Source: Verrucomicrobiia bacterium
Lineage (GTDB): Bacteria > Verrucomicrobiota > Verrucomicrobiia > Limisphaerales > DSYF01
Assembly: GCA_035765895.1 (NCBI GenBank)
Contig: DASTWL010000075.1
Location: forward strand, 1-57,410
DNA: 57,410 nucleotides
Direction of reading: 5' to 3'
Below the pieces are notes generated by a model. The model saw only the letters and a list, made by a program, of their open reading frames with translations, was not told the DNA's origin and did not search any database. Below, piece after piece: positions 1,208 to 54,047 of the stretch (its first letter is position 1; every line of letters starts with the position of its first letter). Position numbers and translations under genes: made by a program.

Positions 1208-4200
1208 GTGCTCTCCCAGCTTTGGATAAAGGTCGCCCGGGCCTCGGCGGATCCTGCGCGGGTTACGGAAGGTTTGAATCAGCTGGCTGCTGCCGGACCC
1301 GAGGCCGCGGATTTTTTGGCGCACGCCTCGGCAACTCAGGCGGAACTTCTGGCCGCGGCGCTTGCGGGCTCCATGCATCTGGCCCAGACCTTTCTTGCGC
1401 ATCCCGAGTGGCTGGGCTTCCTGATTGATGCCGGGCATCTGCAATATCCGCGCAAGGAGCAGGGGTTGCGCCGCGAACTGTCCGACCGCCTGCAGCCGTT
1501 GCTGGCGAGCCGCGATTATGCCGGGGCGTTCTCAACCTTGCGCGAGTTCAAATTGCGTGAGCATTGTCGCATCGCCGTGCGCGATCTGGCGCGACTGGGC
1601 AATCTGCCCGAAACGATCGGCGAACTGTCCAGCCTGGCGGATGTGTGCCTGAGCGGTGCGTTGCAGGTCTGCGCGTTGCAGTTCCAGGAACGGCACGGGC
1701 AGCCGTTTCATCAAGACGTGGACGGCCGCTGGCAGGCGACTCCGTTTTGTGTTCTCGGCATGGGCAAACTCGGCGGGCAGGAGCTGAATTACAGTTCCGA
1801 TGTGGACTTGTTGTTCGTTTACGGCGACGAAGGCCAGGTGTTCAAGGAGCCGCCGACGAAGGGCAAATCGCCATCGCCGGTTATGGCGAGCCATGCCTAC
1901 TTCAACCGGCTGGCGGCTGCGTTCATCGGCGAAGTCACGCGGCTGGGGCCCGAAGGATTTCTCTTTCGCGTGGACATGCGTTTGCGGCCGGAGGGCGACG
2001 CGGGACCGCTGTGCCGTTCCCTCGGCAGCTACGAGAATTACTACAGCCAGTGGGGCCAGACGTGGGAGCGCATGATGTTGATCAAGGCCCGCTGCGTGGC
2101 GGGCGACGCCAGCCTGGCGGGCGAATTCCTCGAAATGATCCAGCCGTTTCGCTACCCGCGCTTTGTGGGCGAAGGCACCTTGCGCGAAATCGCTGCGATG
2201 AAGCAGCGCATCGAAAACGAAGTGGTCCGCGCCGGTGAACTTGACCGCAACGTGAAGCTCGGTCGCGGCGGGATTCGGGAAATCGAATTTGTGGTGCAGG
2301 CGCAGCAGGTCCTGCACGCCGGGCGGAATCCGTTCCTGCAAGGCGCGCAAACGCTGCCGTTGCTGCAAAAGCTCGCGCAATATGACCTGCTGCCGGAAGC
2401 GACGACGCAGCAATTGGCCGGGGCTTATTGCTTCCTGCGGGACGTGGAACATCGTTTGCAAATGGAGGGCAACCTGCAAACGCACACGATTCCCACCGGT
2501 CGCTTGGCGCAGGAGCGTCTCGCGCGTTTGATGGGATTTGGAGATGCGAAGTCATCACTGACCAAACCCGTTCGGAGGCGCAGCCGGGACGCGGTGGTGG
2601 CTCCGGACGATCCGTCTCCGAGCGGCGCCCTGACGGCGTTCAATACGGCATTGCAGCAACACATGCGCGTCGTGCGCGCCGCTTACGAAGCGTTGTTGCA
2701 GACCGACGGCGGAGCGGGGGAGTTTCCATTTCCGCTGCATTTCGTCGGAGTCGAAACAGAATGGCGGGCGCTGTTGGAAGCGCGGCGTTTCCGCGAGCCG
2801 GCCAAGGCGTTCAAATTGTTGCGCGAATTCGTGGAAGGGCCCGGGCACGTTCACATTTCGAGCCGCACCACGGAATGCGCGCGCCAGATGCTCGCACGCT
2901 TGCTGGCCATGTGTCCCGCCGCGAACGAGGAGGCTGCTCCCGCGCGCGTTTTATCGGATCCGGACCGCGTGGTGGCGCGGATGGACAGCTTCATCGCAGC
3001 CTACGGCGCGCGGGCCACGTTGTTCGAGACGTGGCACAGCAATCCGGCCTTTTTCGATTTGCTGGTCTGGTTGTTTGACCGCTCGGAGTTTCTGGCCGAA
3101 CTCGCGATTCGCACGCCGGATCTGGTGGATGAGCTGGTCGCGGGCGACCGCTTGCGCCAGCGCAAAGTGGCCGCGGACATTCTCGCCGATTTGCGGCACG
3201 GCCTGAACGATGCCGATCAACACCAGTGGCTGCGGCGCTATCACGAGGCGGAGTTCATGCGCATTGGTTGCCGCGAAATCCTCGGGCTCGCCGACCTTGC
3301 GCAGCACACGGTGGAACTGACCGCGCTGGCGGATGCGTGTTTGCAGTATGCCTTGGAAGTGGTCGCCCGCCGGCGCCGATTGAAGCGCGCGCCGTTTGCC
3401 ATCATCGGTTTGGGGAAATTGGGCGGGGGTGAAATCACCTACGGCTCCGATCTCGACATCGTGTTCGTGGCGCCGGATGACACGAAGGAGCTGCCCAAAC
3501 TACAGCGGCTCGCCGTGGATCTGATGGATTTGCTGTCGGCCCGCTCGGAGCTGGGCTGCGTGTTTGCCACGGACGCGCGCTTGCGGCCGGATGGGGAGAA
3601 GGGGCTGCTGGTAAACACGCTGCGCGCCCATGCGGATTACTACCGGCAGCGCGCGCAGTTGTGGGAATTGCAGGCCATTTCCCGCGCACGCTTCGTTGCC
3701 GGCGACGCCAAAACGGGCACGCGGTATTTGGCGTGCGTGGCCACGCTCACGGATTTTCGTCCGGCCCGGAATGGTGATCCAAAACTGCCCGCCTGCTTCA
3801 CGCCGGATTGGAAAGGGGAGATGCACCGCATGCGCCTGCGGATTGAGAAGGAGCGCACGCCGGCGGGGCAGGATGAGCTGGCGATCAAGACGGGTCGGGG
3901 CGGTCTGATGGATGTGGAATTCATGGCGCAATGCTTTTGCCTCGCGCACGGCTGGCAGGAGCCGAACACCTTGCGTGCACTGGAGCGGGCGCAGGCGGCC
4001 GGCCTGCTGCCCGAGGCCGAAACGTTTTTGGAGAGCTACCGGGAATTGCGGCGGGTCGAGGGCATTCTGCGGCGGTGGAGTTACGAGGGGGAAACGGGGC
4101 TTCCAGATGCTCCCGCACCGTTTCATCGCGTGTCGGTGCGTTGTGGATTCGCCTCGCCTGAAGAATTCCTGAAAGCGCTGAAAGGCTGGCGCAAACTGAT

Positions 4201-4237
4201 TCGCGAGGTCTATTGTCAGGTTTTCAAACCGGGATGA
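1208..4237 (+). CDS. glnE: Glutamine synthetase adenylyltransferase/adenylyl-removase
   Basis: Bifunctional enzyme that adenylylates glutamine synthetase to shut it down and removes the AMP again, under PII control. Two nucleotidyltransferase folds are visible: GMGKLGGQELNYSSDVD in the N-terminal deadenylylase half and GLGKLGGGEITYGSDLD in the C-terminal adenylylase half, both with the paired Asp metal ligands. I prefer GTG 1208 (1009 residues) over an in-frame TTG at 1166, because homologous sequence begins only after it. About 25 extra residues follow the conserved GFGD near residue 445, and DNA 2568-2625 within that stretch has inverted-repeat ends (listed separately). The downstream gene is convergent. 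Confidence 0.95.
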   Translation: MLSQLWIKVARASADPARVTEGLNQLAAAGPEAADFLAHASATQAELLAAALAGSMHLAQTFLAHPEWLGFLIDAGHLQYPRKEQGLRRELSDRLQPLLASRDYAGAFSTLREFKLREHCRIAVRDLARLGNLPETIGELSSLADVCLSGALQVCALQFQERHGQPFHQDVDGRWQATPFCVLGMGKLGGQELNYSSDVDLLFVYGDEGQVFKEPPTKGKSPSPVMASHAYFNRLAAAFIGEVTRLGPEGFLFRVDMRLRPEGDAGPLCRSLGSYENYYSQWGQTWERMMLIKARCVAGDASLAGEFLEMIQPFRYPRFVGEGTLREIAAMKQRIENEVVRAGELDRNVKLGRGGIREIEFVVQAQQVLHAGRNPFLQGAQTLPLLQKLAQYDLLPEATTQQLAGAYCFLRDVEHRLQMEGNLQTHTIPTGRLAQERLARLMGFGDAKSSLTKPVRRRSRDAVVAPDDPSPSGALTAFNTALQQHMRVVRAAYEALLQTDGGAGEFPFPLHFVGVETEWRALLEARRFREPAKAFKLLREFVEGPGHVHISSRTTECARQMLARLLAMCPAANEEAAPARVLSDPDRVVARMDSFIAAYGARATLFETWHSNPAFFDLLVWLFDRSEFLAELAIRTPDLVDELVAGDRLRQRKVAADILADLRHGLNDADQHQWLRRYHEAEFMRIGCREILGLADLAQHTVELTALADACLQYALEVVARRRRLKRAPFAIIGLGKLGGGEITYGSDLDIVFVAPDDTKELPKLQRLAVDLMDLLSARSELGCVFATDARLRPDGEKGLLVNTLRAHADYYRQRAQLWELQAISRARFVAGDAKTGTRYLACVATLTDFRPARNGDPKLPACFTPDWKGEMHRMRLRIEKERTPAGQDELAIKTGRGGLMDVEFMAQCFCLAHGWQEPNTLRALERAQAAGLLPEAETFLESYRELRRVEGILRRWSYEGETGLPDAPAPFHRVSVRCGFASPEEFLKALKGWRKLIREVYCQVFKPG
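2568..2625. repeat. Palindromic element inside glnE coding sequence
   Basis: A 58-bp GC-rich stretch bounded by imperfect inverted repeats, left 2568-2580 and right 2613-2625, identical at 11 of 13 positions. It encodes about residues 454-473 of GlnE, an Arg/Ser/Pro-rich segment between the conserved GFGD and the helix that normally follows it closely. An in-frame insertion of a small mobile repeat is an inference. I saw no second copy in this window. Confidence 0.45.
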
Positions 4238-4401
4238 TGGGGGGAGCCGCCGAGGCGGGGAACTGAAGAGCTTTTCCAGTCTCCTCAAATCCGTCCGCGT
4301 TGCCGGTGGCGAATGTTGAGACCGTTCGCTGGCTTGCCGAGCAATGGACCGGCGGCAACGCGTTCGGTGCGGGCATCTTTTTTACGAACGTTTCGTTCGA
4401 A

Positions 4402-5220
4402 CTACATCCGGCCGCGCTGGCGGTTGGCTTCGTAAAGAAAGACCGACGTTGCGCTCGTGACATTCAACGAATCCACGGCGGCCGGCATGCGAATGGCCAC
4501 CACCTCATCACACACCGCCAGCACTTCCGGACTGATGCCGGTGCCTTCGCTGCCCATGACGAGACAGCAGTCGTTCGTCATGTTTGCCTGCGTCAACGTG
4601 CGGCCGTCCGTGTGTGGATGCGCCGCAATCATGCGGACGCCCGCGTTCCGCAAGCCGCGCAGCGTCAGGACCAGGCTGGCCGTTTCGATGATTGGGAGCT
4701 GGAAGATGTTGCCCATCGAGGAACGCACGGCGCGCCGCAACCAGGGCGAGGCACAGGTTTCGCCGACGATGATGCCATGGACGTGGAAGGCCGCGCAGTT
4801 GCGCACCAGCGCGCCGACATTCTCCGCGTTCGTCAGCCCGTCCACGGCGACAAGCAGCAACGGTCTCGGGGCGGCGGCCAGAACCGTTGGCAAATCGGGC
4901 TGGGGCGGAATCCGGCCAATGGCGAGCACGCCTTGATACAAGGCAAAGCCGATGAGCTGTTCGAGGACGTGTTTCCCGGCGACGAACAAATCCAAATGTT
5001 CGGCACGGGCGTCGAGGAGCGGTGTAAATTCCGCGACCCGTTCGGGCGGCAGCAGAACGGAGACGACGCCACAACGTTGATCGGCCAGCAGCCGCTTGAC
5101 CACCTTGTCGCCCTCGGCCACGAAGATGCCGTGCTGCCGGTGCTCGGCCGAACGACGCATGGAACGGTAGGGCGCCAGGGCCGGATCGTCGAACGACGCA
5201 ATCTGGCGGATTTGAAACAT
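4402..5220 (-). CDS. SpoU/TrmH-family RNA 2'-O-methyltransferase
   Basis: A 272-residue SAM-dependent 2'-O-ribose methyltransferase of the SPOUT class, acting on tRNA or 23S rRNA. All three family motifs are present: NAENVGALVRN (131-141), GSEGTGIS (223-230) and a RMPAAVDSLNVTSAT knot segment (244-258) that binds SAM. The N-terminal 110 residues match the RNA-binding substrate domain seen in RlmB/TsnR-type proteins. Whether the target is tRNA G18, 23S G2251 or another site cannot be decided here. It follows the MBL hydrolase by 7 bp, so the two are probably co-transcribed. It ends convergently with glnE. Confidence 0.93.
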   Translation of the reverse strand: MFQIRQIASFDDPALAPYRSMRRSAEHRQHGIFVAEGDKVVKRLLADQRCGVVSVLLPPERVAEFTPLLDARAEHLDLFVAGKHVLEQLIGFALYQGVLAIGRIPPQPDLPTVLAAAPRPLLLVAVDGLTNAENVGALVRNCAAFHVHGIIVGETCASPWLRRAVRSSMGNIFQLPIIETASLVLTLRGLRNAGVRMIAAHPHTDGRTLTQANMTNDCCLVMGSEGTGISPEVLAVCDEVVAIRMPAAVDSLNVTSATSVFLYEANRQRGRM

Positions 5221-5227
5221 GCCCGGG

Positions 5228-6010
5228 TCAGAGCGTGAGCGTGGCGGTGGCCTGGCTTTGGGAAGTCACCTCCGTGTGAACGTGGCTGGCGCCAAGCTCC
5301 GCCAGGCGTCGGGTCACGGTGTGCAAGGCCAGTTCGGGCCGGTTGCAATCCTGACTGAGGTGGCCGAGGAAAAGATGTTTCAGGTCGGCCGAGATGATTT
5401 CCTGCACGGCGCCGGCCGCCGCGTCGTTGGAGAGATGGCCGTGCCGGCCGGCAATGCGCTGTTTGATGCTCCACGGTCGCCGGGTGTCTTCCTGCAACAG
5501 CTTCACGTCATAGTTGGCCTCCAACACCAGCGCGTGGGCGGGTTTCACCCGGTTCAACACGAGGGTTGTGGCATGTCCAAGGTCGGTCAGAAAACCGATG
5601 TTGGCCGTGGCGGTGCGGATGAGGAAGCCCACGGGATCCTGCGCATCATGGGGGATGCTGAAGGATTCCACCGCAACATCGCCGATCTCAAAGGACGCCC
5701 CGGTCTCGAACAGCCGGCTTTCCAGCCGCACGCCCAGTTGAAACTCGATGGCGTCGCGCGTAAGCCGGTTGCAATAGACCGGGATGCGGAGTTTGTCGCC
5801 GAAACCGGTCAACCCCTGGATGTGGTCGCTGTGCTCGTGCGTAATCAGGATGGCGGTCAGGCTTTCGGGAGAACGGCCGATGGTCGCCAGCCGCTGGCGG
5901 ATTTGACGGGCGCTGAAGCCGGCGTCAATCAGCAGCCGTGCCTCATCGGTTTCCAGATAAGCGCAATTGCCTTTGGAACCGCTGCCCAGGATGGTGAACC
6001 GACACGCCAT
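5228..6010 (-). CDS. MBL-fold metallohydrolase, WalJ/YycJ-like
   Basis: A 260-residue metallo-beta-lactamase-fold protein of the YycJ type, a family with 5'-3' exonuclease activity proposed to act in DNA maintenance. The N-terminal GSGSKGNC (9-16) is diagnostic for this subfamily, and THEHSDH (57-63) is the zinc-binding HxHxDH loop. A later GHLSxD segment supplies another metal ligand. It is the first gene of a two-gene minus-strand unit with the SpoU methyltransferase and diverges from rpoN across 158 bp. It is not a beta-lactamase. The exact substrate is unknown. Confidence 0.88.
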   Translation of the reverse strand: MACRFTILGSGSKGNCAYLETDEARLLIDAGFSARQIRQRLATIGRSPESLTAILITHEHSDHIQGLTGFGDKLRIPVYCNRLTRDAIEFQLGVRLESRLFETGASFEIGDVAVESFSIPHDAQDPVGFLIRTATANIGFLTDLGHATTLVLNRVKPAHALVLEANYDVKLLQEDTRRPWSIKQRIAGRHGHLSNDAAAGAVQEIISADLKHLFLGHLSQDCNRPELALHTVTRRLAELGASHVHTEVTSQSQATATLTL

Positions 6011-6168
6011 GCGGCGACGTTAGGAAGCCGCGGGGAAGGGGGCAACGGTATTTTCTGAAGGTGGTGTGTTGCCTTGCAGGTGACGTGCTTGAAGGGGATT
6101 ACCGCAACGAAGCGAAAGTCATGCCAGCTTTTGCTTGTGCGTTCGGAGCGGCTTCTTAGAATCGGCGC

Positions 6169-7671
6169 ATGTCGCAAGGACTGACATTACAAGCTCGGCT
6201 GACGCAGTCGTTGGTGCTCGCCCCGCAATTGCAGCAGTCCTTGGCGCTGCTTCAGGCGCCCACGCTTGAGTTGAAGGCATTGGTCGAGCAGGAACTCCAG
6301 CAAAACCCCGTTCTCGAAGAAGTGGCCAGCGCCGAACCCGAACTGGCGGATCGGCGGGATGCCGACGGCGAAAGCATCAGTGAGGCAGCCGACCCGGCCG
6401 AACCACCGGCTGATTTGACGTTCGACCCGGCCACGGAAAAACCGGCGCCGGAACCGGCGGACGATTTCCAGGCCGAATTCGAGCATCTCTCCCAACTGGA
6501 TCAGGAGTGGCGCGATCACTACTCGCAGTCCAACGCGCCGCTGCGCCCGTCCGCCGAGGACGAGGAGCGGCGGCAGTTCATGTTTGATTCGCTCGTGGCC
6601 AGCACCTCGTTGCAGGAAAAACTGCTGGAGCAGGTGCGCGACTCCGATTTGAAGCCGGAACTCTGGCCTGTGGCCGAACTCATCATCGGCAACATTGATG
6701 ATTACGGCTATCTGAAGGCGACCGTGGATGAAATGGCCTCCTCCACGGGCATTGCGCCCGAGGCAATCATGGAGGCCTTGAAGGCCGTGCAATCATTCGA
6801 CCCCGCGGGCATTGGCGCGCGCGACCTGCGCGAGTGCCTCATGCTGCAACTCGAACGCCTCGGGGAACAGAACTCGCTCGAATACCAGATCATTCGCGAT
6901 CACATGGATGCCTTGGGCCGGCGGCGCATCCCGGAAATTTCCCGCGCCACAGGCCAGGACGTTGACGAAGTGCAGGACGCGATTGCGCGCATCGCCCGGC
7001 TCGAGCCGCGGCCCGGGCGCGCGTTCCTGCCGGACAACGACCTTTTTGTGGTGCCCGAAGTCTTTGTCACGCGCTCGGGTGATGACTATGTCATTTCCAC
7101 CAACAACGACCACATCCCGCACCTGCGCATCAGCAACACCTACAAGGACCTGATGTCCGGCGGGGACAAGAATCCCGAGGTCCGCAATTACATCCGCGAA
7201 AAAATTCGGGCCGGCAAATTTTTGATCAAGAGCCTGCACCAACGCCAGCAGACCATCACCAACATCGCCCGGGAAATTGTGAACCGGCAGCGCGAATTCA
7301 TGGACAAGGGCGTGGCCTTTCTGAAGCCGATGACCATGGTGCAAATCGCGGAGGTGGTGGGGGTGCATGAAACGACTGTGAGCCGCGCAGTTTCCGGCAA
7401 ATACATGGAGACCCCGCAGGGCGTCTTCGAAATGAAATACTTCTTTACCGCCGGCATTTCGACCTCGACCGGTGAAGGGGCGATGTCCAACACGAGCGTG
7501 AAAGACATGATTGCAGACATCTTCAAGAACGAAGATTCCAGCAAGCCGCTGTCAGATCAGGAAGTGGTCAAAATGCTCGGCGAGAAGGGCATCGTCATCG
7601 CCCGCCGCACGGTGGCCAAATACCGGACGGAGCTGAACATTTTGCCGTCGAACCTTAGAAAGGTTTACTGA
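6169..7671 (+). CDS. rpoN: RNA polymerase sigma-54 factor
   Basis: A 500-residue sigma-54 that directs polymerase to -24/-12 promoters and needs AAA+ activators. The N-terminal Gln/Leu-rich region I (LVLAPQLQQSLALLQ) is followed by an acidic region II (about 55-130), the core-binding domain, and a C-terminal RpoN box ARRTVAKYR (478-486) that reads the -24 element. The length matches the family. ATG 6169 is the only start that preserves region I. Its regulon is not visible, since I found no convincing -24/-12 site in the window. It stands alone, with the MBL gene divergent upstream. Confidence 0.97.
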   Translation: MSQGLTLQARLTQSLVLAPQLQQSLALLQAPTLELKALVEQELQQNPVLEEVASAEPELADRRDADGESISEAADPAEPPADLTFDPATEKPAPEPADDFQAEFEHLSQLDQEWRDHYSQSNAPLRPSAEDEERRQFMFDSLVASTSLQEKLLEQVRDSDLKPELWPVAELIIGNIDDYGYLKATVDEMASSTGIAPEAIMEALKAVQSFDPAGIGARDLRECLMLQLERLGEQNSLEYQIIRDHMDALGRRRIPEISRATGQDVDEVQDAIARIARLEPRPGRAFLPDNDLFVVPEVFVTRSGDDYVISTNNDHIPHLRISNTYKDLMSGGDKNPEVRNYIREKIRAGKFLIKSLHQRQQTITNIAREIVNRQREFMDKGVAFLKPMTMVQIAEVVGVHETTVSRAVSGKYMETPQGVFEMKYFFTAGISTSTGEGAMSNTSVKDMIADIFKNEDSSKPLSDQEVVKMLGEKGIVIARRTVAKYRTELNILPSNLRKVY

Positions 7672-33251: not shown

Positions 33252-33281
33252 TTGACAAATGTGGTCACGCGTGACTACATT
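33252..33281 (+). promoter_or_regulatory. TA promoter with embedded palindromic operator
   Basis: TTGACA (33252-33257, consensus -35) and TACATT (33276-33281) are 18 bp apart. Between and touching them lies a perfect 12-bp palindrome GTCACGCGTGAC (33264-33275), flanked by TGT and ACA in matching positions (33260-33262 and 33277-33279). The arrangement fits autorepression of a toxin-antitoxin operon by the antitoxin complex. It also argues against the TTG at 33252 as start codon. Confidence 0.6.
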
Positions 33282-33287
33282 GGTGCT

Positions 33288-33620
33288 GTGAAAGCGAAAC
33301 GAACCATAAAATACCCGGGGCAGAGGTCGGAGGCGACGGTTCTAAACGATGCGGTGGCGGTGCCCGGCATCGGGTTAACCATTCCGGTTCGAGCCGCCAA
33401 AGCCAAATTGTCGGCGTTGCTGGAACTGGTCGCCGGTGGGCAGGAAGTGACCATCACCTCAGATGGCGTGCCGAAGGCGGTCCTGTCGCCCGTGACGCCG
33501 CACAAGCCCCGCAAGGTGTTCACGGGAACTTGGGAGCAGCTCAAGACCATGCCGATGCAAACCGAGGGGCCGTTCGCTGACGAGATCGTCCGCGCTGACC
33601 GGGATGGGAGAGGTTGGTAA
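33288..33620 (+). CDS. Phd/YefM-type antitoxin
   Basis: A 110-residue antitoxin that neutralises the downstream PIN toxin and probably represses its own promoter. IPVRAAKAKLSALLELVAGG followed by EVTITSDGVPKAVLSPV is the Phd/YefM DNA-binding fold (the antitoxin class paired with many VapC toxins). The C-terminal 40 residues are the likely toxin-binding tail. GTG 33288 is chosen because a consensus promoter with operator covers the frame upstream, which would make the mRNA nearly leaderless. The 3' end overlaps the alternative toxin start at 33604. Confidence 0.8.
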   Translation: MKAKRTIKYPGQRSEATVLNDAVAVPGIGLTIPVRAAKAKLSALLELVAGGQEVTITSDGVPKAVLSPVTPHKPRKVFTGTWEQLKTMPMQTEGPFADEIVRADRDGRGW

Positions 33621-48651: not shown

Positions 48652-49407
48652 ATGGCAGCCATCGGCCGGTTTCAAAGGGGCGAGGAAACCTTCCACGCGA
48701 AAGTGGTGGATGGCGAATTGTTCAAGCTGCGCGGCGACGTCTTCGGTTCGCCTTCCTTCGACAAAAAACCTACCCCCTGGAAAGGCGTCCGCACACTGGT
48801 GCCCATTGTGCCCTCCAAGATCATCTCCGTGGGCGTCAATTACGCCGACCACGCCCGCGAAATGGGCCGCACCCCGCCGAAGGATCCCCTGATCTGGTTC
48901 AAGGCCACCACGTCGCTCATCCCCGATGGGGCGAAAATTGAGCTGCCGTTTCCCAAGCATCGCAACGATTACGAAGCCGAGCTGGCGGTGGTCATTGGCC
49001 GGAAGATCCGGAACGTGACGCCGGCGGCGGCCTCCCGTTACATCCTCGGCTACACGGCCGCGCAGGACATTACGGACCGCACCATCCAGGCGGCCGAAAG
49101 CCAGTGGGCCCGCGCGAAGTCGTTTGACACCTTCACGCCACTGGGACCTTACATCGAGACCAAGATCGACCCGCACGAATTGAGCATCCAACTGTTCCAG
49201 AACGGCCAGCTCCGGCAGAACTCAAACACCTGCCAGCTCATTTTCAACTGCTACCAGCTGGTCAGTTTCATCTCCACGAACATCACCCTCCTGCCGGGCG
49301 ACGTCATTCTCACCGGCACACCTGGCGGCATTGCTCCCATTCAAAGCGGCGACCGCCTCGAAGTGCGGATTCAGGGCCTCGCGCCGCTGGTCAACACGGT
49401 GAAGTAA
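48652..49407 (+). CDS. Fumarylacetoacetate hydrolase family protein
   Basis: A 251-residue FAH-fold hydrolase/decarboxylase. VGVNYADHAREMG, the metal-binding EAELAVVIGR, DITDRTIQ, RAKSFDTFTPLGPYI and GTPGGI are the family motifs. Its short length groups it with 2-hydroxyhepta-2,4-diene-1,7-dioate isomerase, acylpyruvate hydrolase and oxaloacetate tautomerase types rather than true FAH. ATG 48652 is the first start before the domain. It diverges from the protease gene. A hairpin array follows. Confidence 0.88.
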   Translation: MAAIGRFQRGEETFHAKVVDGELFKLRGDVFGSPSFDKKPTPWKGVRTLVPIVPSKIISVGVNYADHAREMGRTPPKDPLIWFKATTSLIPDGAKIELPFPKHRNDYEAELAVVIGRKIRNVTPAAASRYILGYTAAQDITDRTIQAAESQWARAKSFDTFTPLGPYIETKIDPHELSIQLFQNGQLRQNSNTCQLIFNCYQLVSFISTNITLLPGDVILTGTPGGIAPIQSGDRLEVRIQGLAPLVNTVK

Positions 49408-49590
49408 ACTGCGCCCGCTCGAATCTCACTGCGCCCCTTCAGATTGAAAGCGGTGGTATCCACCGCAGTCCAAAACGATGGCGCGTTGGTTGGGCCGCAT
49501 GAAAGTCGCCAAGTTGCAACGAGGCTTCATTCCACTGTTGATTTCGATTCCTCGCGGCTTTGCGTCTTTGTGTTTGGCCCCGACTTTGCC

Positions 49591-49710
49591 CGGAGCGCCG
49601 GCGTCCCCGCCGGCTTGTGCCGATCGATTCACGGCTCGCGTTCAATTCTGGTTTGATCGAACCGTCAATCTGCCCGTTTGTCCCAAGCCGCCGGGGACGG
49701 CGGCGCTCCC
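49591..49710. repeat. Inverted-repeat element A in the hairpin array
   Basis: 29-nt arms at 49591-49619 and 49682-49710 are inverted copies, identical at 25 of 29 positions. Each arm contains a hairpin of its own (49597-49614 and 49687-49704). Two of the four differences are compensatory, a G-C pair in one arm being C-G in the other, so both hairpins are kept. The spacer is 62 bp. Confidence 0.65.
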
Positions 49711-49731
49711 AAGGCCGTAAAGCGTCTTGGA

Positions 49732-49756
49732 GTGCGCCAGTCCTCTGGCGCTTTGG
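49732..49756 (+). repeat. Direct repeat, copy 1, with hairpin
   Basis: 25 nt (GTGCGCCAG, variable 4-nt loop, CTGGCGCTTTGG) repeated at 49973-49997 in the same orientation. Stems are identical and only the loop differs (TCCT here, CCCG there). The pair brackets element B. Confidence 0.65.
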
Positions 49757-49791
49757 CGGCAAGCAAGGACCGAACGTGCCGAAGGCACGAT

Positions 49792-49943
49792 GGAAATTAG
49801 CCAGCCACGTGAGTGGCTGGGTGGGGTGGAGTGATGATTCGTGCCGGAGGGCACGGTGGAGCAGGGCGTGATTCCCGGCGTCCCTTCAGGACGTGACGAT
49901 TTTGCGGGCGGCTGACCAGCCACGTTGTGGCTGGCTAATTTCC
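49792..49943. repeat. Inverted-repeat element B in the hairpin array
   Basis: GGAAATTAGCCAGCCAC at 49792-49808 recurs exactly inverted at 49927-49943, and each is followed inwards by a further 8 nt that pairs into an 8-bp hairpin (49801-49820, 49916-49934). Just outside each end lies another small hairpin (49775-49789, 49948-49960) whose stem bases differ between the ends but still pair. Confidence 0.65.
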
Positions 49944-49972
49944 GGTTGTCCCGTTGGGACGAAGCCGAGGCT

Positions 49973-49997
49973 GTGCGCCAGCCCGCTGGCGCTTTGG
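49973..49997 (+). repeat. Direct repeat, copy 2, with hairpin
   Basis: Second copy of the 25-nt unit at 49732-49756; same stem, loop CCCG. It ends 50 bp before the HNH-type gene stop. Confidence 0.65.
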
Positions 49998-50046
49998 AAT
50001 CAAATCACCGCTTTATTCGCCCCAACCCCAGACTAGATGATTTGAA

Positions 50047-50763
50047 TTATGGATAATTCATTCCCGAACCATTTGAATGAACAACGAAAAAACCAAAACA
50101 TTCGTAAAAGGCCAACATCCAAACGCCGGCATCCCGCGTTTCGTCAACATGACGCCAGCATTGAAAGGCGCGTTGGCCACATTCGAAATGCTCCGCTTGT
50201 TTTAGCGTCGCTATCAATCTCAACTGCCTATCGAACGGTTTTGGGTGAATATCAATCACGTCAAAATTTGATTGGTAGTAATCAAATCTTGGGTGAAGTG
50301 CAAACAGTAGCCCCTTCGTGATCCGAATCATGCCCTGATGGAATTCGTGTGCGGGGATGCGTGCTCGGGCGAGGCCGGGGTGATCTGCTAACGTTTGCAT
50401 CGAAGCGAGAAGGCTTTCGAAAAATCTCATTTGCCGACCCTTTGCCATCGTTCCCCCGAATACCTCTTGTTCTAGGATTTTCTGTCCTACCTCATTTCGG
50501 TCAAATGGAGTTGTAGCGGCAATCCGTAGCCGCTCATCGAATCCGGAATGTTGGTTGTTGCATCGGAAGCAGCAAGGAACGGCGATGAGGTTGGTCGGTT
50601 TCGGTGGCAGGAAAAGTCCAGATGGAGGAACGTGGTCGCGGGTTCTAAAATCCGCAGATGGTCGTTCGCCAGAGCGCAGCGCATAGCTCCGAACTGGTAT
50701 CCCACACAGATAGCACCGTTCATCGTGCTTACCGGACTTCTTTGATTTCACGACGCCAACCAT
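50047..50763 (-). CDS. HNH-type nuclease-like protein
   Basis: A 238-residue protein with an N-terminal HNH-type zinc/nuclease domain: CYLCG (17-21), RDHVPPSGLF (DH at 43-44 as metal and base residues), NLIAVPCC (Asn58) and CCFRCNNQHSG (65-68 zinc Cys pair). The C-terminal 150 residues match no family I know. It starts inside the 3' end of the kinase gene, with 35 bp overlap, so the two are translationally linked. GC is well below the neighbours. It could be a DNA or RNA nuclease or a degraded zinc-binding domain. Confidence 0.7.
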   Translation of the reverse strand: MVGVVKSKKSGKHDERCYLCGIPVRSYALRSGERPSADFRTRDHVPPSGLFLPPKPTNLIAVPCCFRCNNQHSGFDERLRIAATTPFDRNEVGQKILEQEVFGGTMAKGRQMRFFESLLASMQTLADHPGLARARIPAHEFHQGMIRITKGLLFALHPRFDYYQSNFDVIDIHPKPFDRQLRLIATLKQAEHFECGQRAFQCWRHVDETRDAGVWMLAFYECFGFFVVHSNGSGMNYP

Positions 50764-52204
50764 TTTCAGTCTTTATCCAAACTACCCTAGTCAGCGCTTT
50801 GTCCAACTCCTTCTTGATGCGTCCACGCGCGCGGTCAATCACGTCACCAATCAGTTCTAAAAACCCGGTGGCGTCTTGTGGTGTTGCCTGAACGAGGCAA
50901 TTTCGAACGAGTTGTTTGCGGAGTAATTCGTAGGTCCATTTCTCCTGCTGGCGATCAAGCAGGTAGGACGCTGCGTATTCTTCAAGACGCGCGCGCAAAG
51001 AGCTCTCTGACAGCATCCCGCGTGTCTTGTGAAAGTCCTTTCTCACGAATTCGTTTTCGCAGGCGCTGCGCAAATCTGCCCCAGCAAAGCTAAAAAGGCG
51101 TGCGAATGTGGCCTTGTCGGGGATTCCTTTGCCAAGCCTCCACGATAAATCAATCACTGGAAATACAACGAAAAAGGCGACAAGCTCGTCTCGCAGAAGT
51201 CCATCATTGGGCTTCGCTAAATTCAGAAAATGGGTCGTCATCTTTAGCGAAGTGTCCCGGATTACTCCTTTCAGGGTCAGATCATCCTGCGCTGCAAATG
51301 CAGTGAGGAATTCCTCGATGCTCTGAGGCCTTTCGGAATAGTCGAGGCTCAATGCGCTATCGATAAGATGAAGCAGTCTGCCGCTGATGCGGCCTTGCCC
51401 TACCTCGACTGCTGGACGAAGTGAGTCTTCGCGCAACCTGTTTGGGGCCGGGAGCGGAGGCTTTCCTGTGACGAGTTCGTAGAGAGTCGCACCGATTGCG
51501 TAAATGTCTGTCCACGGTCCTAATCGCCCGCCCGGCATGAGCTGTTCTGGCGGTGCGTAGGCGGGTGTAGCGATGACCTGATGTTCAGTGCTTGAATCCA
51601 CCTGAAACTGGACGGCGGCTCCAAGGTCTATCAACACGGGATTCCCATCGCCCCTGACGATTATGTTGTCAGGCTTGATGTCCCGGTGAACTAGTCCTGC
51701 CATATGCATTGCGAGAACCCCTTGGAAAAGCGGCTCTGCTATTCCAGCAATCTCCTCATCTGCAAAATTCGATCCCCTCTTCAGTATCAAATCACGCAGA
51801 GTAAGGCCGGTTTCGAAGCTCATCGCGAAATACGCCGTTGAATGAGCCTCGAAGAATCGCGTGACCCGAACGATGTTTGGGTGATTAAACTTCGCCAGTC
51901 GCCGGACTTCGGCCAAGAATTCGCGTTTTCCCTCCTGAAACCTTGGGGCTAGGACAGGACAAATCGGTTTCAAATCACCACCATTTCCCCTCGCGACAAG
52001 CCCACGGGGAGCAAATTCCTTGATGACGCAAAAATTTTGTAGGTTCCGATCTCGGCAAAGATACGTGATTCCGAACCCGCCCCTGCCGAGGACTTTTACG
52101 ACTTCATATTCAAGAAACCTGCTGCCGGGAGCGAACGGCGTCGTCGGCTGGAAGGTCGGCCCAGCAGGTTTGCCTTGCCCTAAAATCTTATCGAAAAGTC
52201 CCAT
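50729..52204 (-). CDS. Serine/threonine protein kinase with unknown C-terminal domain
   Basis: A 491-residue Hanks-type kinase. Motifs: glycine loop LGRGGFGITYLC (39-50), Lys62 in VIKEFAP, HRDIKPDN (catalytic Asp175), DLG (193-195) in place of DFG, and PAYAPPEQ. The kinase domain ends near 300. Residues 300-491 are a helical region with no recognised domain and no transmembrane helix, so the protein is cytosolic. GC is roughly 48-55% against about 63% in proS next door. It is the upstream gene of a two-gene cassette with the HNH-type protein and diverges from proS across 118 bp. Confidence 0.88.
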   Translation of the reverse strand: MGLFDKILGQGKPAGPTFQPTTPFAPGSRFLEYEVVKVLGRGGFGITYLCRDRNLQNFCVIKEFAPRGLVARGNGGDLKPICPVLAPRFQEGKREFLAEVRRLAKFNHPNIVRVTRFFEAHSTAYFAMSFETGLTLRDLILKRGSNFADEEIAGIAEPLFQGVLAMHMAGLVHRDIKPDNIIVRGDGNPVLIDLGAAVQFQVDSSTEHQVIATPAYAPPEQLMPGGRLGPWTDIYAIGATLYELVTGKPPLPAPNRLREDSLRPAVEVGQGRISGRLLHLIDSALSLDYSERPQSIEEFLTAFAAQDDLTLKGVIRDTSLKMTTHFLNLAKPNDGLLRDELVAFFVVFPVIDLSWRLGKGIPDKATFARLFSFAGADLRSACENEFVRKDFHKTRGMLSESSLRARLEEYAASYLLDRQQEKWTYELLRKQLVRNCLVQATPQDATGFLELIGDVIDRARGRIKKELDKALTRVVWIKTENGWRREIKEVR

Positions 52205-52322
52205 GCAATTTGGCGCGCCGAGTTTGGAGGAGGTGGGGTTGCCATTTCAACGCCAGAGACGGATTAATTGCCTTTCAATTTTTCCTAGTTCCCCCCGCCC
52301 GTGATTCGTAGTCTCTGCGCCC

Positions 52323-54047
52323 ATGCGTTGGACACAGACATTCATCCCGACACTGAAAGAATCGCCGGCGGACGCGGAGATCGCGTCGCACAAGCTGCTG
52401 CTGCGCGCGGGGCTCATCCGCAAGCTCGGTGCGGGCGTTTATACCTTCCTGCCTCTCGGCTTGCGCGCGTTGCGCAAGGTGGAGCAGATCGTCCGCGAGG
52501 AGATGGATCGCGCCGGGGCGATGGAGGTGCTCATGCCCGCCATCCAGCCGAAGGAAATCTGGGAGCAGAGCGGGCGTTACGAGACGGCGAGCGGCGTGCT
52601 CTTCAAGGTGAAGGACAGCGCGCAACGCGACTGGGTGCTCAGCCCGACGGCCGAGGAGGTCATCACGTCGCTGGCGGCGAACGAGATCAGTTCGTATCGC
52701 CAGTTGCCGAAGAATTTTTACCAGGTGAGCCTGAAATTCCGCGATGAGATCCGTCCGCGCTTCGGCCTGATGCGCGCGAAGGAGTTCATCATGAAAGACG
52801 CGTATTCGTTCGATACGACGGACGAGGGCGCGATGGCGAGCTATCACAAGATGTATGACGCCTACAAACGCATCTTTGCGCGGTGCGGCCTGAAGGCGTT
52901 CCCGGTCGAGGCGGACACGGGCGTGATCGGCGGCAATTACTCGCACGAGTTCATGGTGCCGGCCGAGACGGGCGAGAATGACGTGGTGTATTGCGAGGCG
53001 TGCGGTTACGCGGCGAACATTGAGAAGGCGACGAGCGGCCTGCCGAAGACGGCGCCCCGCGAGATCGGCGCGGCGGTGGAGAAATTCCCGACGCCCGGCG
53101 TGGTGACGATCGAGGCGCTGGCGAAGGAGCCTTACAAGGTCGCGGCGAACCGGCAGATCAAGACGCTGGTTTACATCCTGGACAGCAAGCCGGTGATCAT
53201 CCTCGTGCGCGGCGACGATCAGTTGAACGAGACGAAGCTCATGGCGCGCACGGGTGCCGTGGCGGCGCGGCCCGCGACGGTGGATGAGATTGTGGCGTTG
53301 CTCGGCGCGAAGCCGGGTTCGCTCGGCGCCGTGGTGAACGTGCCCGCAGAGGTTCCGGTTTACGCCGATGAACGCCTGCAAGGCGCGAACGACATGACGA
53401 CGGGCGCGAACGAGGACGGTTTCCATTTCCGCAACGTCTCGATGGAGCGCGACATCAAGGTGACGCAATGGTTCGACCTGCGCACCGTGAAGGTGGGAGA
53501 GCCGTGCGTGAAGTGCGGCAAGCCGGTGAAGATCCAGCGCGCCATCGAGGTGGGCCACGTCTTCAAGCTCGGCACGAAATACAGCGAGAAACTGAACGCG
53601 CTCTACCTCGACGAAGCGGGCAAGCAGCATCCGGCGGTGATGGGTTGCTACGGCATCGGCGTGACGCGCACGTTGCAGGCGGTCATCGAGCAGTCAAACG
53701 ACAAGGACGGCATCATCTGGCCCGTCGGCACGGCGCCTTACACGGTCTGCATCACGCCACTGAGCGTGAAGCCCGACAGCGACGTGATGAAGCTCGCGGA
53801 GAAATATTACGCCGAACTTACAGCGAAAGGTGTGGATGTCATCCTCGACGACCGCGATGAACGGCCCGGGTTCAAGTTCAAGGATTCAGAGCTGGTCGGA
53901 TTCCCCATCCGCATCGGCATCGGCGAGAAATCTCTGGCGAAGGGCGAGGTGGAGATCAAGCCGCGTGCCGGAGCGCTTGCTGCGGTGAAGAGTGAGGATG
54001 CCATCACGAAGGTGATGGAACTGATCGCCGCGGGTCAAACCGCCTAA
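52323..54047 (+). CDS. proS: Prolyl-tRNA synthetase
   Basis: A 574-residue class II synthetase of the bacterial type with an editing (INS) domain. SHKLLLRAGLIRKLGAGVYTFLPLG is motif 1; KFRDEIRPRFGLMRAKEFIMKDAYSF covers motif 2; motif 3 is GCYGIGVTR. The INS domain spans about 225-405 and includes CEACGY and a later CVKCGK. The C-terminal anticodon-binding domain holds the DDRDERPGFKFKDSEL segment. It is followed 12 bp later by a CPBP protease. Confidence 0.97.
   Translation: MRWTQTFIPTLKESPADAEIASHKLLLRAGLIRKLGAGVYTFLPLGLRALRKVEQIVREEMDRAGAMEVLMPAIQPKEIWEQSGRYETASGVLFKVKDSAQRDWVLSPTAEEVITSLAANEISSYRQLPKNFYQVSLKFRDEIRPRFGLMRAKEFIMKDAYSFDTTDEGAMASYHKMYDAYKRIFARCGLKAFPVEADTGVIGGNYSHEFMVPAETGENDVVYCEACGYAANIEKATSGLPKTAPREIGAAVEKFPTPGVVTIEALAKEPYKVAANRQIKTLVYILDSKPVIILVRGDDQLNETKLMARTGAVAARPATVDEIVALLGAKPGSLGAVVNVPAEVPVYADERLQGANDMTTGANEDGFHFRNVSMERDIKVTQWFDLRTVKVGEPCVKCGKPVKIQRAIEVGHVFKLGTKYSEKLNALYLDEAGKQHPAVMGCYGIGVTRTLQAVIEQSNDKDGIIWPVGTAPYTVCITPLSVKPDSDVMKLAEKYYAELTAKGVDVILDDRDERPGFKFKDSELVGFPIRIGIGEKSLAKGEVEIKPRAGALAAVKSEDAITKVMELIAAGQTA

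Follow-up and report, generated by a model that had tools for sequence, protein, structure and literature searches.

A low-GC kinase and HNH gene pair upstream of proS in a Verrucomicrobiia bacterium: a putative accessory insert encoding a member of a widespread HNH_5-like nuclease family

Several described systems resemble parts of the locus reported here. In Septu, the HNH protein PtuB depends on the H and N residues of the HNH motif (PMC13096335), and in retron-Eco7 PtuB acts with an ATPase partner to deplete tRNA-Tyr (PMC11555353). Protein kinases also occur in defence, for example in KKP and Stk2 (PMC11341870) and in the TerY-P triad, a described anti-phage system that combines a VWA protein, a PP2C protein and a kinase (PMC7699616). 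In addition, a candidate structured RNA, Acido-Lenti-1, has been described for Acidobacteria and Lentisphaerae (PMC2864571).

We analyzed a 57,410-nucleotide stretch of a Verrucomicrobiia contig (hereafter, the window), which carries two overlapping genes on the minus strand. The first gene of the pair (50729-52204) encodes a Ser/Thr protein kinase of 491 amino acids, and the second (50047-50763) a predicted HNH_5-like nuclease of 238 amino acids, which starts within the 3' end of the kinase gene. Both open reading frames are located exactly as the first-pass annotation had claimed, including the 35-bp overlap (50729-50763), which is compatible with translational coupling of the two genes. The pair had also been described as lower in GC than proS and the upstream genes, and this was borne out: its GC is 50-53% and its GC3 0.49-0.55 (GC/GC3 of 0.499/0.49 and 0.526/0.55 for the two genes), versus about 60-66% and mostly 0.70-0.85 elsewhere (mostly 0.60-0.65/0.70-0.85 for other window genes). 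In 500-bp steps, GC is 0.47-0.56 over the pair and about 0.60-0.66 on either side.

Comparison with a genome of the same genus (G475) located one edge of this segment. The proS genes are 94% identical in protein and 91.5% in DNA, and blastn homology (91.5% over 52275-54022) ends at 52275, i.e., 48 bp upstream of proS, in the proS leader (52275-52322, plus strand) and within the 118 bp that separate the start of the kinase gene from proS. This places the right boundary of the insert between 52204 and 52275. The pair is absent in G475, where the contig runs on into other genes upstream of proS. The left edge lies between 49407 and 50047 and could not be placed exactly because the gene on that side (48652-49407) is on a different contig in G475. 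No exact repeats of at least 9 bases common to both flanks of the insert were found. The homology break, the absence in G475 and the base composition support the view that the pair is a horizontally acquired accessory insert, and the earlier description of a low-GC two-gene cassette holds. The neighboring window genes, as read from the sequence, include proS, a fumarylacetoacetate-hydrolase-like gene and others; these surroundings are housekeeping, and no defence genes were found near the pair within the window. Elsewhere in the window, an open reading frame of 122 amino acids (33252-33620, plus strand) has a Phd-like antitoxin motif (VTITSDGVPKAVLSP).

The HNH gene is followed by an array of inverted and direct repeats (49560-50020), confirming the hairpin array noticed at one end of the pair. 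Its inverted repeats occupy 49592-49709 and 49792-49943, and it includes an Acido-Lenti-1 motif (Rfam RF01687; 49775-49820, minus strand) that scored 51.4 bits against a gathering score of 37. The genome contains 11 copies of this motif at E-values up to 0.001, 5 of them above the Rfam cut-off. Judging from the sequence, the other copies are mostly intergenic, and some lie beside transposase-like and low-GC open reading frames. For example, one pair of copies (contig C52) adjoins an open reading frame resembling a REP-type (Y1) transposase (L097:2989-3435), another copy (C11) is near open reading frames of IS3-type transposases (L098), and C7 and C8 carry two opposed copies about 4 kb apart. 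Acido-Lenti-1 may be more than an RNA gene, namely a mobile hairpin resembling REP elements; a mobile hairpin that marks an insertion-prone intergenic region is plausible. One sequence of the array, TGCGCCAGNCCNCTGGCGC, was considered as a genome-wide repeat and rejected, as its two copies are both within the array.

The HNH protein belongs to a conserved family, with which it aligns over its full length (alignments A1 and A2). It has the family core CxxC...H...CxxCN (zinc/HNH) in the form C17-x2-C20, TRDH44VPP, L59, C65, C68-N69 and D76-E77, and it keeps all invariant residues of the family (C17, C20, T41, R42, H44, P46, P47, F51, L59, C65, E77 and G196). The conserved C-terminal part of the family reads IRxTKGL...GxGVFxxW...W...FY. 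HNH_5 (PF14279) was matched by 20 of the 23 family members aligned over full length, and many members weakly match the PADLOC profiles PDC-M01B or PtuB (PtuB in 13). The window protein itself has no Pfam match up to an E-value of 10 and none in NCBIfam or PADLOC; about 14 residues that the other members lack are inserted behind its first CxxC, which may hide it from profiles. Its AF2 model is of good quality (pLDDT 82.5, pTM 0.82), and fold searches with it gave nothing significant among solved or viral structures: the best Foldseek match in PDB had an E-value of 0.02 and the best VIA match, to hot-dog thioesterases, a Z-score of 4.3. Such a lack of matches does not indicate a new fold. The gene is single-copy in its genome, and the protein had no match in phage and plasmid collections. 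On these motifs, the window protein is predicted to be an intact HNH_5-like, metal-dependent nuclease. The first-pass annotation had called it an HNH-type protein with an unassigned C-terminus, and both parts are upheld by the intact core and the searches of PDB and VIA.

Relatives of this protein were searched in 388 genomes of the phylum, in a genome-contig collection and in viral contigs. We detected 30 distinct relatives with a readable neighborhood from many phyla, the closer of which align over full length, and 29 of these loci extended 1 kb or more upstream. The family ranges over Verrucomicrobia, Patescibacteria, Chloroflexi, Planctomycetes and virus-derived contigs. Two relatives are in contigs of the latter type, and some members may therefore be phage genes with another role. 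In small Patescibacteria/WWE3 genomes (L061-L064), the family occurs mostly as solitary genes.

None of the 30 HNH loci had a PpkA-like kinase adjoining the HNH relative. The kinase profile used was built from the window kinase and its Verrucomicrobia relatives, and the window kinase, as a positive control, was recovered with an E-value of 1.7e-105. The sole match in the HNH loci was a weakly similar, non-adjacent kinase (30 bits) in L013 and L058, which are one MAG. In the reverse test, the HNH profile found nothing beside Verrucomicrobia kinases within short flanks. A conserved kinase-HNH pair was thus not borne out in the sampled genomes, and many HNH relatives stand alone among unrelated genes, which counts against the sensor-effector defence pairing proposed earlier and is an outcome that the first-pass annotation had itself named as speaking against it. 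Most likely, the pairing would be a lineage-specific assembly, local or recent, and not a conserved immune system. It is possible that rare co-occurrence exists outside the searched subset of known genomes.

Some HNH relatives were found in a defence context. Near-identical HNH genes occur in type I restriction-modification (RM) loci of an Akkermansiaceae MAG (L066:5983-6723) and a Prosthecobacter MAG (L073:5983-6723). The neighbors include, in the former, an AbiZ-like protein and a gene after the HNH gene that strongly matches PD-Lambda-3_B (E-value 1.6e-77), and in the latter, a type I specificity subunit and a methylase-domain protein; here, the HNH gene is a possible defence hitch-hiker. 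A distant relative (L023:10059-10760) directly adjoins a DISARM DrmD helicase, which in turn is next to a C5 methyltransferase, and another (L022:6859-7632) is accompanied by an ATPase, a Vsr-like protein and a C5 methyltransferase (read from the sequence); these two might possibly be an extra component of such systems. L013 (3039-9911) contains a TerY-P-like triad, composed of VWA (3039-3773), PP2C (3635-4867) and kinase (4905-6242) genes, followed by a Sel1-repeat gene, a small open reading frame and the HNH relative, which in L013/L058 comes about 2.9 kb after the triad (VWA, PP2C and Sel1 were read from the sequence). These few cases, for which we claim no enrichment, weakly suggest that defence loci are among the places where the HNH family can occur. 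The defence link drawn in the first-pass annotation is therefore retained in part, and weakly, at the level of the HNH family; around the pair itself, the window is housekeeping and contains no defence island.

The kinase domain (PF00069, residues 33-294, E-value 8e-39) keeps the glycine loop GRGGFG40, VIK, HRDIKPDN173, DLG193 (DLG in place of DFG) and PPEQ218, and with all catalytic motifs present, it looks catalytically competent. Its closest solved relative is PpkA (5hnv, E-value 1.2e-54 over residues 22-300). No kinase relatives were found in viral contigs. The only plasmid match spanning most of the protein, from Rhizobium (H3), was set aside: it is a PpkA-like kinase whose coiled-coil tail is unrelated, and no HNH gene lies next to it. 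Akkermansia kinases were likewise rejected, as their similarity is limited to the kinase domain and their short flanks contain no HNH gene.

Beyond this domain, about residues 305-491 (~185 residues) form an orphan tail (modelled region 50732-51358, minus strand). The tail was not matched by any Pfam, NCBIfam or PADLOC model, in agreement with the earlier remark that the 190 C-terminal residues are unassigned, and it had no match to PDB sequences or plasmids. We found no credible relative of it in about 1,190 genomes, which included 388 genomes of the phylum, 196 of the order, 299 and 294 from two further phyla and the records in which HNH relatives had been found; the query genome was present as a positive control only in the phylum and order searches. 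Weak matches in L055, L099 and L100 were rejected on inspection, being fortuitous similarities to unrelated proteins or reading frames. The AF2 single-sequence model of the tail is helical with a terminal beta-hairpin, and with a pLDDT of 42 it is unreliable and too poor for a fold search.

Taken together, we favor an accessory, unconserved, horizontally acquired operon with an active nuclease, situated between housekeeping genes, and give this reading about an even chance of being correct. The kinase and HNH genes would be co-transcribed, and co-translated through their overlap; the tail of the kinase might sense or bind something, and phosphorylation by the kinase would then hold back or trigger the HNH nuclease. 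The latter would cut nucleic acid (DNA or tRNA), for which PtuB-type HNH proteins are the best precedent, and cleavage might limit incoming elements or the infected cell. The step in which the kinase controls the nuclease, taken alone, is tentative, and we consider it somewhat doubtful. It is rather unlikely, however, that the two genes are unrelated passengers, i.e., an HNH_5-like nuclease gene of the solitary kind and an orphan kinase gene that, without any functional link, entered an insertion-prone intergenic region marked by Acido-Lenti-1. Such an origin would fit both the solitary HNH relatives and the intergenic location of other Acido-Lenti-1 copies, some of them by transposase-like or low-GC open reading frames, but the overlap would be unnecessary if the genes were unrelated passengers, and together with the similar composition it suggests joint travel and co-transcription. 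The first-pass annotation had also mentioned a degenerate island, which is disfavored because both proteins are intact.

The same intactness and the 35-bp overlap could be taken as signs of a true two-gene anti-phage module, in which infection is sensed by the tail and the HNH protein, once phosphorylated, is licensed to cleave DNA or tRNA, leading to abortive infection. The occurrence of HNH relatives close to a TerY-P triad and in loci with type I RM, AbiZ-like and PD-Lambda-3 genes, as well as the weak similarity of the family to the PtuB and PDC-M01B profiles, point in this direction. However, the lack of co-occurrence in 30 HNH loci, a tail without a credible relative in about 1,190 genomes, the absence of defence genes nearby in the window and the mostly solitary HNH relatives speak against it, and we consider it unlikely. 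A new immune module with an undescribed helical sensor domain on a PpkA-like kinase and a phosphorylation-switched PtuB-like HNH effector is, in our opinion, quite unlikely. It is very improbable that the kinase serves as a regulator in a PpkA-like (type VI secretion) pathway and that the gene downstream is unrelated to it: PpkA is indeed the closest solved kinase (E-value 1.2e-54), but the similarity is confined to the kinase domain and no secretion genes were recognized among the window open reading frames around it. Compared with the proposed link between kinase and nuclease, the more solid outcome of this study is the outline of an HNH_5-like family that is widespread, occurs mostly as solitary genes and shares a conserved C-terminal domain; this family is worth testing in its own right.

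With respect to known systems, the window kinase and PpkA (5hnv) are alike over residues 22-300 and differ in the C-terminus, the likeness being limited to the kinase domain; no type VI secretion genes were recognized among the open reading frames of the window, as read from the sequence. The kinase domain also matches the PD-T4-6 and MAD6 profiles, but these matches span only the generic kinase domain (about residues 27-308), and the equivalog score of MAD6 from MADS was not reached (105.8 bits for NCBIfam MAD6 versus a cut-off of 460). TerY-P is kinase-based too, but the window pair is without a VWA or PP2C partner, and the kinase of L013 is only distantly similar to that of the window (30 bits). 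KKP and Stk2 are further examples of kinase-based defence. In Septu, the partner of PtuB is the ATPase PtuA, whereas the partner of the window HNH protein is a kinase; the HNH gene is flanked by the kinase gene and the fumarylacetoacetate-hydrolase-like gene, and no PtuA adjoins it. The window protein alone gives no profile match to PtuB or HNH_5 and has an unassigned C-terminal fold; nevertheless, HNH_5 (PF14279) and PtuB of Septu and retron-Eco7 have the zinc/HNH core CxxC...TRDHxPP...CxxCN in common with it. In the literature searched, we found no description of a direct switch from a kinase to an HNH nuclease; if the two genes work together, such a switch is what this pair would represent.
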